From the IMG/VR virus record IMGVR_UViG_3300035204_001280, positions 1-26,818 of that record: a stretch of 26,818 bases of DNA, one strand, 5' to 3'. This DNA comes from a virus. Positions within the stretch are counted from its first letter, which is position 1; every line of letters begins with the position of its first letter. The notes beneath the pieces were generated by a model. It did no database searches, was not told where the DNA came from, and worked only from the letters and a program-made list of their open reading frames with translations. Shown piece after piece: positions 17,820 to 21,949 of the stretch. The position numbers and the translations under genes are program-made.

Positions 17820-18395
17820 CTAAACCTTCGGCTTGAGTTTATGCCACGATCCGAGCTTTGGCGCCGCGGCTCTCGCTATCTCCAGCCGTTCGAGCTGCGC
17901 GGGTGTCATGCGCTCCCACTTTGTGAGGTGAGGGCGCTCCGGAGTCGAATGGTAGAGCTGGATTGTGTAAGGATCGGCCTTTAATCGCTCGCAAAAGGGC
18001 TCCCACGCCATCGTAGAGCCGTTTTGGAGTCTATACCCGGCTGCGCAGTCGCAAGCCGCTGTATAGGTGTTTACGCGCGATTCTGAGCCATTGGGGGATC
18101 CGACGTGGTGCGCCACCTCCACCCATCCGGTCTGGTCGCATCGTCGGCACCCTTGCGGTTTGAGCGCTCCAACATCGGGCTTCATGCCTTTAGCTGTGTT
18201 GCGGATATTGGCTATCGTCGGCGTGCGCTGGTGCTCAGCCATCCAGCGTTTAGCCGCATCGAACAGGAGCCGGTCGGGCATGTGTTGTAGGCCGTCCTTC
18301 CAGACCGGGAACACGTCTCCGGCCCAGCTATCGCGCTTGCCATAATTGGCCGCTATCAGGCTTAGTACTTTGCTTATCGTCTGGTCCGCTGCCAT
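17820..18395 (-). CDS. Putative helicase-loader-type replication protein with Cys motif
   Basis: The 191-residue protein begins with a helical N-terminal domain (about 5-70) with a Tyr, a 'W..GL...P..L...A.....' core and PTIANIRNTAKG, the pattern of phage helicase loader/inhibitor proteins. A Cys cluster follows: CRRC (about 83-86) and CDC (about 115-117), possibly a zinc knuckle. It follows the initiator gene, as lambda P follows O, which supports a role bringing the host DnaB helicase to the origin. A P-like identity is inferred. The ribosome site is AAAAGGGGAAACC. Confidence 0.5.
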   Translation of the reverse strand: MAADQTISKVLSLIAANYGKRDSWAGDVFPVWKDGLQHMPDRLLFDAAKRWMAEHQRTPTIANIRNTAKGMKPDVGALKPQGCRRCDQTGWVEVAHHVGSPNGSESRVNTYTAACDCAAGYRLQNGSTMAWEPFCERLKADPYTIQLYHSTPERPHLTKWERMTPAQLERLEIARAAAPKLGSWHKLKPKV

Positions 18396-18406: not shown

Positions 18407-19354
18407 TTAGTGAGCGATTAAGTTTCCGTCGTCGTCAAAATCTTCGTCGCTCGGCCAGTACTCTAACGAAGCGGCCGGCTTGGCGTCTGTGCCTGGCTCC
18501 CACTGGGCCGCGAATTCGACATACGATCGACACTTGCCAGCTCGAAGGAATGTCCCGATCCCGTAGCCGTTCTCGCGTAGGAACCTGGCCCGGTCGTGGT
18601 TCGACTCCCACAGCCAGCGCCAAGCGTGCTCGAAAGCCTCCAAGCCGTGTTCGGCTACGCGACGCCGTAGATCCTCGCGGCGCTTGCCGAGCTTGGCCCG
18701 GCTGCCGTTGGGCGTGTGTTGCAGCCGTAGATCCTCCATGCGGTCCCATAGGCCCGTAAGGTCTACCCTGTCGGCCTTGGGCTTTTTGGGGCGGCCCGCT
18801 TTTCCGGGTATCGGCGCCGGTCGGCAAACCGGGGCGGGCCCACCGTCGGGAGCTTCGGCGACGGAGGGCGCCTCGGCTTCCGATTCTTCCCGTTCACACT
18901 CTAAAGCGTCTGGCTTAGCATCGCTAAGACCGACATTACTTTGTTCTTGTGTAAGTGTGTAGTGTGTAGTGTGTTGTTCCGCGCGCGCGAGTGCAGCGAA
19001 AGTGTCCGGCGACTGTCCGAAAGGTGTCCGAACGGTGTCCGGTTTTGCCCCGTAAGTCCGCGTTATCTCTGTAACTGAATGTCCGTTAGGTGTCCGGCGA
19101 CTGTCCGGCGACTGTCCGACACTAGATTTCCAGTCCTGTTGATAACTCCGGACGCGGGATATCATTTTCTGCGCCTTATGCTTGCTCCAACCGGCCCATT
19201 TGGCGAATTCGCGGACGCTCCAAGCCTCCCCGGTGTCCAAGGCCCGAAACAGCACCATAAACCCGAGCACGTCGGGAGCTGGGTCTTCTCGCGTCCAGCG
19301 CCGCTTAATGGCCTCGTCGATAAGCTCGACCGGGGCCGGGTTCCATTGTTCCAC
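18407..19354 (-). CDS. Replication initiator protein (O-like) with origin inside its gene
   Basis: The 315-residue protein starts with GTG at 19354, with GGAGG upstream. The N-terminus (about 20-75, with SVREFAKWAGWSKHKAQKMI) is a winged helix typical of replication initiators. Residues about 80-118 are encoded by the 11-bp repeat region and contain repeated PD..RTP and GQSPD elements. The C-terminal domain (about 205-295, with AWRWLWESNHDRARFLRENG and YGIGTFLRAGK) matches the C-terminal domain of phage replisome organisers. It should bind its own repeats and recruit a helicase through the next gene's product. A Pro/Ala/Glu-rich linker lies at about 145-200. Confidence 0.75.
   Translation of the reverse strand: MEQWNPAPVELIDEAIKRRWTREDPAPDVLGFMVLFRALDTGEAWSVREFAKWAGWSKHKAQKMISRVRSYQQDWKSSVGQSPDSRRTPNGHSVTEITRTYGAKPDTVRTPFGQSPDTFAALARAEQHTTHYTLTQEQSNVGLSDAKPDALECEREESEAEAPSVAEAPDGGPAPVCRPAPIPGKAGRPKKPKADRVDLTGLWDRMEDLRLQHTPNGSRAKLGKRREDLRRRVAEHGLEAFEHAWRWLWESNHDRARFLRENGYGIGTFLRAGKCRSYVEFAAQWEPGTDAKPAASLEYWPSDEDFDDDGNLIAH
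18954..18974 (+). repeat. AGTGTGT triple tandem repeat, possible unwinding element
   Basis: Three head-to-tail copies of AGTGTGT occupy 18954-18974 inside an AT-richer stretch (about 18941-18980) of the initiator gene, about 30 bp from the nearest iteron. In iteron origins of lambdoid type, a weaker duplex next to the iterons is where melting begins. That role is inferred here. Confidence 0.45.
19003..19123 (+). repeat. Iteron array: two blocks of four 11-bp TGTCCG repeats (probable replication origin)
   Basis: TGTCCG begins at 19003, 19014, 19025, 19036 and again at 19080, 19091, 19102, 19113. All eight start in one 11-bp register (the two blocks are 77 bp, 7 x 11, apart). Three copies are identical as TGTCCGGCGAC (19003, 19091, 19102). 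Because 11 is not a multiple of 3, the repeats pass through all three reading frames of the initiator gene, so selection is more likely on DNA than on protein. By analogy with lambda O and related initiators, this is a likely replication origin bound by the gene's own product. Confidence 0.75.
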
Positions 19355-19400: not shown

Positions 19401-19964
19401 TTAATCAACCGCCGGCGCATCTTCAACGATACGATAAATTACGATCTCGGTCCGTGGCTTCCCGTCGCGCTCGGCGTAGAATTTCCAACCCTCGCCGCCT
19501 ACCAATTGCGCATCGTCGACGTACACGTTCCCCGCCTTTTCGATGCCGTCGGAGATCGCCTTTTCCAGATTGTCTTTATCTGGCCGACACGGCCGAAGGA
19601 TCAGCCCGTCGGGAGCCTTGCGGCTGAGCTTGAGCCGTTGCGGGCGCTTGAAGATAAATCGCGCCTGTATGAATAGCGGCTCAGCACGGTAGGCCATGGT
19701 CCCGCCGTGCTCGGGCTTCCCAAGGCGCCGGGCGACCCTTGAAACTTTCCACTCGAAATCGAAGGTCTCGCGCGGCGTATATGTGCGGGTCTTCCCGTAC
19801 CGCGTGACCGTGCGCGCGCGCTGTTTCGACTGTGGGCTGCCTGCTACCGTTAGCGTCGTCATGACGGACCACAAGCACCCGGCCCGGTAGATATGCCCTG
19901 TGCTCTGCTCTAAGGCCTCTACGGCCCGCGAGAGCTGGATTAGCCGCGAAAACTCTTCGGTCAT
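19401..19964 (-). CDS. RusA-family Holliday junction resolvase
   Basis: The 187-residue protein contains the RusA signature RPDKDNLEKAISDGIEKAG (127-145) followed by VYVDDAQLV (147-155). The acidic residues Asp129, Asp131, Asp139 and Asp150/Asp151, plus Lys135, match the metal-binding and catalytic set of RusA. It would cut four-way junctions from recombination or replication before packaging. The start is fixed by ATGA overlap with the upstream gene and a GAGGTG site. The RusA core begins at Met35, so there is a 34-residue N-terminal extension compared with the usual family length. Confidence 0.88.
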   Translation of the reverse strand: MTEEFSRLIQLSRAVEALEQSTGHIYRAGCLWSVMTTLTVAGSPQSKQRARTVTRYGKTRTYTPRETFDFEWKVSRVARRLGKPEHGGTMAYRAEPLFIQARFIFKRPQRLKLSRKAPDGLILRPCRPDKDNLEKAISDGIEKAGNVYVDDAQLVGGEGWKFYAERDGKPRTEIVIYRIVEDAPAVD

Positions 19965-21187: not shown

Positions 21188-21949
21188 ATGTCCGAAGAAT
21201 CAACAGCGATCGCCACGACTGAGGCGGCGCCACTGGTCGCGATGGACGCTGGCACATTCGCCGACGCGCTGAGCACATACCGACACATCCAAGCCGAGAT
21301 CGATCGGGCGTTTCCTGACTGCATTATGAACGTGCGCGGGAAGCAATTTCGCAAGAAGAGCTATTGGCGCGCGGTCTCCACGGCTGCAAATCTCAGCGTC
21401 GAGATCATCGACGAACGCGAACACACGGACGATAACGGCGGCCGCCACTGGATAGCCACGGCGCGCGCTACGGCTCCGAACGGTAGGACCGCCACAGGCG
21501 ACGGCGCGTGCTCTGCGTCCGAGAAAAGCGGCTCTATGTGCTCGCTTCACAATATCCGAGCCCATGCGCTTACACGGGCCAAGAACCGGGCGATCTCGGA
21601 TCTTGTCGGATTCGGAGAGGTGTCCGCCGAAGAGCTGAGCCCGGCCGATTGGAGGGCACCAGCGAGGCCCGCAGCGCCAGCGCCGCAGGTGGTAGAGCAT
21701 GGCGGCCCAGCACCGGAGACCCGCAGCCCAGAGGCCGTAGGTTGGAAGCAACGGCGCGATCTCAAGTGCCCGCGGTGCTCCGATAAGCTGTGGGACAATA
21801 TCGCCGAACGGGCAGCCGGAAAGACAAGCAAGCCGCCGCTCGGCTGCAATAATCGCGATTCCTGCGGCTATGCGGTCTGGAGTGTCACGGACGCGATCGA
21901 GCTGGTCGGAAAGATGGACGCCGGCGAAGTCGATTTTGAGGGTTTCTAA
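21188..21949 (+). CDS. Putative single-strand annealing-like protein with C-terminal zinc ribbon
   Basis: The 253-residue protein has a central domain at about 48-150 with strands and a helix in the order GKQFRKKSYWRAV, then RHWIATARATAPNGRTATGDGA, then RAHALTRAKNRAISDLVGFG and EVSAEEL. The layout, with a conserved 'RA..RA' helix after a Gly-rich hairpin, recalls Rad52/Erf-type annealing proteins of phages and archaea. A linker rich in Pro/Ala (about 151-185) leads to Cys194-X2-Cys197 and Cys220-X5-Cys226, a zinc ribbon. With RusA nearby, it may form a recombination system. Function is inferred from pattern only. GGGGAAGAC precedes the ATG. Confidence 0.45.
   Translation: MSEESTAIATTEAAPLVAMDAGTFADALSTYRHIQAEIDRAFPDCIMNVRGKQFRKKSYWRAVSTAANLSVEIIDEREHTDDNGGRHWIATARATAPNGRTATGDGACSASEKSGSMCSLHNIRAHALTRAKNRAISDLVGFGEVSAEELSPADWRAPARPAAPAPQVVEHGGPAPETRSPEAVGWKQRRDLKCPRCSDKLWDNIAERAAGKTSKPPLGCNNRDSCGYAVWSVTDAIELVGKMDAGEVDFEGF

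Follow-up and report, generated by a model that had tools for sequence, protein, structure and literature searches.

An in-register array of 11-bp iterons inside a putative replication initiator gene of an uncultured phage

Introduction

Why would a phage gene carry, inside its coding sequence, eight copies of one hexamer spaced by multiples of 11 bp? The gene is an open reading frame (ORF) in an IMG/VR record of 26,818 bp (GC content about 0.61), which was analysed as a whole and is called the window below. A first-pass annotation of this DNA had read the hexamers as iterons bound by a replication initiator. Here, we ask whether chance or coding can explain the array, which protein might read it, and whether similar arrays lie in the initiator genes of other phages.

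Results

Geometry of the array

The repeats form two blocks within an ORF on the minus strand, as follows.

18407..19354, minus strand: putative replication initiator, 315 aa, GTG start; initiator role suggested by context
19003..19046, plus strand: iteron block A, four 11-bp units, core TGTCCG
19047..19079, no strand: inter-block spacer, 33 bp without a core (44 bp from core to core)
19080..19123, plus strand: iteron block B, four 11-bp units, core TGTCCG, in the same 11-bp register as block A

On the plus strand, the TGTCCG cores start at 19003, 19014, 19025 and 19036 in block A and at 19080, 19091, 19102 and 19113 in block B, which confirms the earlier description of eight copies at exact 11-bp steps in two blocks of four. 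The steps are 11, 11, 11, 44, 11, 11 and 11 bp, and the block starts lie 77 bp apart. The register that the blocks had been said to share across these 77 bp holds, and corresponds to 44 bp (4 x 11) from the last core of one block to the first core of the other. We defined the class of arrays considered here by three or more direct repeats spaced 11 bp apart whose core does not vary, and in the window the core is TGTCCG in 8/8 units. Blocks in one 11-bp register, a second trait of the class, are likewise present through the 44-bp step. The core is non-palindromic, and the repeats are direct, without a dyad. No additional in-register copy was found at one mismatch; a lone near-copy (19055) does not fall in this register.

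Chance, coding and slippage

On the coding strand of the ORF the core reads CGGACA and starts at nt 237, 248, 259, 270, 314, 325, 336 and 347. The eight copies fall in frames 2, 1, 0, 2, 1, 0, 2 and 1, and hence in all three frames of the 315-aa ORF; the peptides across them are VGQ, PDS, RTP, NGH, PDT, RTP, FGQ and PDT. As a null model, the ORF was recoded synonymously with its amino acids kept. Among 20,000 such recodings TGTCCG reached at most 6 copies, with at most 5 in register, and 0/20,000 attained the observed array. When all hexamers were counted in 2,000 recodings, the in-register maximum was 6. Across the whole record and periods of 7-19 bp, no period other than 11 gave more than three in-register copies of any hexamer, compared with eight at period 11, and no other hexamer came close. 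The use of three frames and the recoding result bear out the earlier proposal that the repeat, which crosses all frames, is under selection as DNA.

Such repeats could arise in a gene, with no function for the DNA itself, through slippage with tandem duplication or through repetition of the protein sequence in a linker of low complexity. In keeping with this history, one 11-mer (TGTCCGGCGAC) makes up three of the units, and the linker peptide (GQSPDSRRTPNGH) is repetitive-looking. However, an 11-bp period is out of frame, and phase is kept over the 44 bp between blocks. Plain slippage also fails on the units themselves, because the hexamer is fixed while the 5-bp spacers vary (GCGAC, AAAGG, AACGG, GTTTT, TTAGG, ACACT). 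The recodings contradict this history as well, and the geometry recurs in other phages with other cores, so that spacing is conserved where sequence has changed. We therefore consider an array devoid of DNA function hardly credible.

An AT-rich stretch adjoins the array

18915..18979, no strand: AT-rich stretch, candidate DNA unwinding element, directly 3' of the array in the gene direction

The GC content is 0.40 for this stretch, as for its 60 nt at 18920-18979, against about 0.61 for the record, and only 0.07% of the record's 60-nt windows are equally AT-rich. The window thus has the AT-rich stretch adjoining the array that was a third trait of the class. An AT-rich dip is also found 3' of the arrays in two groups of initiator genes described below (GWIKLHRK and GF-ALxREA). 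Within the stretch, TGTGTAG occurs in 3.7 copies at 18948-18974, which may act in unwinding or as a further binding site.

The ORF and its neighbours

19139..19222, minus strand: predicted HTH, residues about 45-72 (WSVREFAKWAGWSKHKAQKMISRVRSYQ), candidate iteron reader (secondary structure, low-confidence model)
19401..19964, minus strand: RusA-like Holliday junction resolvase, upstream gene (PF05866, E = 1.7e-15; phrog_140, E = 5e-23)
17820..18395, minus strand: downstream gene encoding 191 aa, possibly a helicase loader on a non-significant match (phrog_2289 helicase loader, E = 0.085)

Within the ORF the array covers nt 237-352 and separates the sequence for the N-terminal HTH from that for the C-terminal part. 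It therefore lies inside the gene just after an N-terminal DNA-binding domain, as in other members of the class, the domain here being the predicted HTH. The 315-aa protein matched phrog_664, a DNA binding protein family, at a marginal E = 0.003. Nothing in Pfam was significant, and initiator N-terminal-domain profiles gave E = 3.5 or worse; no N-terminal match to the SPP1 gp38, Phage_rep_org_N or DnaD-like initiator family was found for this protein. Alignment to an initiator profile with hhalign was weak (probability 0.3%), yet it fell at the HTH. The single-sequence fold was poor (mean pLDDT 44), and PDB sequence searches gave no usable match. For the product of the downstream gene, a fold and a PDB sequence search were likewise uninformative.

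No homologue of the 315-aa protein was detected in phages, plasmids, viral contigs or 299 sampled genomes, tblastn included. Searches for relatives of the phage through its portal returned none that was close, and those through its terminase returned one (L530), which is too short to span the initiator region. The terminase genes, too, lie downstream of the ORF. The ORF is thus a sequence orphan, and we infer its identity as an initiator from context. Elsewhere in the window, a 253-aa ORF (21188-21949, plus strand) has a C-terminal zinc-ribbon-like part and a marginal match to phrog_22961, a family of unknown function (E = 0.002).

Arrays at the same place in initiator genes

Many viral contigs contain TGTCCG repeated at 11-bp steps. 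Raw pattern counts were dropped as evidence of enrichment, since control patterns match often too; the analysis relied instead on where arrays lie within initiators and on protein-first surveys. At 49 of the 119 loci with three TGTCCG copies, the array lay 250-450 nt (median 355 nt) into an ORF with a match to an initiator N-terminal-domain profile, and the orientation of iterons relative to the gene in the window is also seen in 34 of these 49. For the control of TGTCCG at 12-bp steps, 10 of 114 were at the initiator position among the matches listed. A scrambled hexamer at 11-bp steps gave 54 loci, 11 of them inside initiators, which we attribute to the fact that iteron cores vary. The matched families carry the PHROG names DnaD-like helicase loader, replication initiation O-like and replisome organizer. 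Several four-copy loci outside the N-terminal profiles likewise encode PHROG replication initiation proteins (L544, L551, L563, L564 and L584). TGTCCG arrays with 11-bp steps were also observed at L030, L063 and probably L545, L557 and L560, where the neighbouring ORF is small (about 159 aa, MKKEIRIRIDNELHDKLQEYYNN...) and ribbon-helix-helix-like; these ORFs lack an initiator-profile match and possibly belong to another replication or partition system.

The protein-first survey collected initiators by their N-terminal domain only and was blind to repeats. Significant 11-bp periodicity was found in 62/76 members of the GWIKLHRK group (start median 329 nt) and in 49/73 of the GF-ALxREA group (start median 353 nt), with a 22-bp harmonic in both, and other periods were rarer. 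Because 11 is not a multiple of 3, this periodicity cannot come from codons. It was weak in a third group, A4, drawn from bacterial genomes (5/71 significant), in which the best period was often 10; by eye, we ascribe the latter to AGAAG-type purine repeats. Epsilon15 (L290 nt 1833-1873), Carin1 (L296 nt 1844-1864) and the A4 group have inverted TGTCCGC...GCGGACA pairs and no simple direct array.

Spacing is kept over longer distances as well. The 44-bp inter-block step of the window is common to phage L, SE1Spa, ENT47670, HK629, HK022 and the contig loci L013, L047 and L564. Gaps of at least 40 bp between copies are exact multiples of 11 in 22 of 51 cases at the TGTCCG loci and in 47 of 72 cases in the survey, counts that partly reflect shared ancestry, so that binomial p-values for them are not independent tests. 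These gaps agree with the in-phase placement suggested in the first-pass annotation. Among the initiators found by protein in viral contigs (L297-L456), an extra core recurs at a distance of 66 bp (6 x 11) from the array proper, with 42 exact gaps, and could possibly be a conserved further contact or a trace of shared ancestry.

The position of the arrays bears on whether the iterons are instead operator sites, at which the ORF protein or another phage regulator would repress the operon with no origin involved. An HTH protein whose gene contains direct repeats could regulate itself, and the best annotation available for the orphan is that of a DNA binding protein. The sites, however, are about 240-350 nt inside the gene, away from the promoter, and the same arrays occupy the same place in replication initiator families, beside an AT-rich stretch. 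Moreover, the in-gene repeats of SPP1 are a demonstrated origin (PMC6316719). A solely regulatory array is therefore improbable, and autoregulation may occur alongside origin function.

Core and recognition helix change together in relatives

The commonest units in the GWIKLHRK group are ACAAnTGAACA, ACAAnCGGACA and ACAAnTGACCA. The varying bases follow residues of the recognition helix: C at unit position 8 accompanies Arg/Lys at helix position 14 in 7/9 cases, compared with 0/45 otherwise (Fisher p = 2e-7), and G at unit position 7 accompanies Thr/Ser at helix position 12 in 10/13, compared with 4/41 (Fisher p = 9e-6), with p-values that ignore relatedness. In a tree built without the helix columns, there are several switches of helix and core traits, and most sister pairs with different helices also show the expected difference in base. 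Over L297-L456, the core varies along with helix residues 12, 14 and 15, which suggests a simple readable protein-DNA code.

A natural domain swap provides a second comparison. The genes for phage L gp18 (L619 nt 101-1000) and HK022 O (L620 nt 101-1000) share 92% DNA identity in the second half of the gene (nt 490-900). Their recognition helices differ (PDNKVKSLLRSF in phage L gp18, KPDRVQYLLRKF in HK022 O), as do their cores (TGTCCA in phage L and [GT]T[AC]CCA in HK022), while the spacing is 11, 11, 44, 11, 11 in both. This retention of spacing under different core words supports the earlier reading of the repeats as initiator-binding iterons. Judged from sequence comparison, the initiator probably reads its own gene, with core and recognition helix changing together in one group. 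The helix code of the GWIKLHRK group was also applied to the window and did not fit: Lys12, Gln14 and Lys15 call for GAACA or TAACA, and the actual core is GGACA.

The array could also be bound by some other protein of the phage or its host, for instance an initiator encoded at another locus, in which case the ORF would not be the initiator. The ORF is without significant homology to known initiators, and the record may be a fragment. Nevertheless, a predicted HTH stands at the expected place before the array, RusA is a neighbour, and the window ORFs that were scanned include no better initiator candidate. In relatives, moreover, the arrays track the recognition helix of the initiator's own protein. 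We regard a foreign reader as slightly less probable even than an operator.

Discussion

A probable origin inside the putative initiator gene

Five observations are established: the geometry of the array, the constraint on it beyond coding, its AT-rich neighbour, its recurrence in initiator genes, and the covariation of core and helix in relatives. We conclude that the array is very probably the initiator-binding part of a replication origin that lies within the initiator gene, with an AT-rich half adjoining. The orphan ORF would be the initiator and its HTH would bind the sites, followed by assembly on a single face of the DNA, melting and helicase loading.

In the mechanism that we propose, the array lies where the initiator gene encodes the linker, and an N-terminal winged-helix/HTH domain would bind direct TGTCCG (CGGACA) iterons with one protomer per 11 bp. 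One-turn spacing and the 44-bp block step (4 x 11) would set eight protomers on one DNA face. The resulting filament or wrap could strain the AT-rich DNA at 18915-18979, and the C-terminal part, together with the product of the downstream gene, may recruit the replicative helicase. Several results count against this model, namely the orphan status of the protein, its marginal family matches, its poor fold, the misfit to the helix code, the non-significant loader match and the case of 80alpha ORF20, discussed below.

The family-wide patterns, 11-bp arrays and core-helix covariation, are the most interesting result. It is likely that winged-helix (DnaD-like/O-like) phage initiators as a rule have origins made of one-turn (11-bp) direct repeats in the DNA that encodes their linker, with further blocks in the same register, that the joint change of core and recognition helix constitutes a readable code linking each initiator to its own gene, and that the window is an eight-site example from a lineage without known relatives. 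For an uncultured phage in which hardly any replication genes can be annotated, the analysis narrows the likely replication origin to about 200 bp. An in-phase 11-bp array within a gene can flag an initiator even when the protein is unrecognisable. Fixed helical spacing combined with a changing core and matching helix changes yields concrete predictions of which residue reads which base, and the comparison explains how phages swap origin specificity while keeping the other half of the initiator.

Comparison with known systems

The first-pass annotation referred to lambda-type initiators, a term that is inexact here. Like the window, lambda has iterons and an AT-rich region in the middle of its initiator gene (O, ori-lambda), but its iterons are four 19-bp imperfect inverted repeats (PMC7466680), whereas those of the window are short direct repeats. 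A lambda-type unit was rejected for the window on unit length (11 versus 19 bp) and on the absent dyad.

In Staphylococcus phage 80alpha, ORF20 and ORF21 drive autonomous replication, and the origin is apparently inside ORF20 (PMC5499656). We found no 11-bp array in 80alpha ORF20. An 11-bp array is thus not required in every such initiator, because ORF20 lacks one despite an embedded origin with experimental support.

In Bacillus phage SPP1, the initiator gp38 binds the direct repeats of oriL, which lies within its own gene (38) and has an AT-rich unwinding element beside them (PMC6316719). In our analysis the strongest period in gene 38 was 11 bp, at nt 359. Unlike the window, SPP1 has a GACA-type core in one block and a biochemically proven origin; its initiator has no detectable homology to the 315-aa protein.

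The viral contig L564 (IMG/VR 3300009168_000891) resembles the window in having CGGACA on the coding strand in a 3 + 44 + 4 arrangement within one 11-bp register. Its protein is a PHROG replication initiation protein (E = 1.4e-24). It differs in having seven copies, and the two proteins are not detectably related over their length. HK022 gene O has 11-bp units and the 44-bp step (11, 11, 44, 11, 11) in common with the window and differs in core and recognition helix.

The design already has a published example in Salmonella phage L. Its initiator gene 18 contains six 11-bp repeats (TGTCCAACGGA) that were published as the likely origin (PMC8022706), and its record (MW013503) places a rep_origin at 31650-31726. 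We computed a repeat spacing of 11, 11, 44, 11, 11 for phage L and found the same in SE1Spa, HK629 and Cronobacter ENT47670. As in the window, the repeats are direct, have the core TGTCC[A/G], lie within the initiator gene, 3' of the part for the N-terminal domain, form two blocks in one register with a 44-bp step, and are followed directly 3' by an AT-rich stretch. Like that of the window, the origin of phage L is predicted. It differs from the window in copy number (3 + 3 rather than 4 + 4), in its TGTCCA core (TGTCCG in the window) and in iterons oriented oppositely relative to the gene, and the two proteins are without detectable homology. The two-block in-register array had been put forward as an unrecognised design, a claim that the published phage L gene 18 overturns. 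The window is a clear further example of a known design, notable for its eight sites, their orientation relative to the gene and the unrelated protein that the gene encodes.
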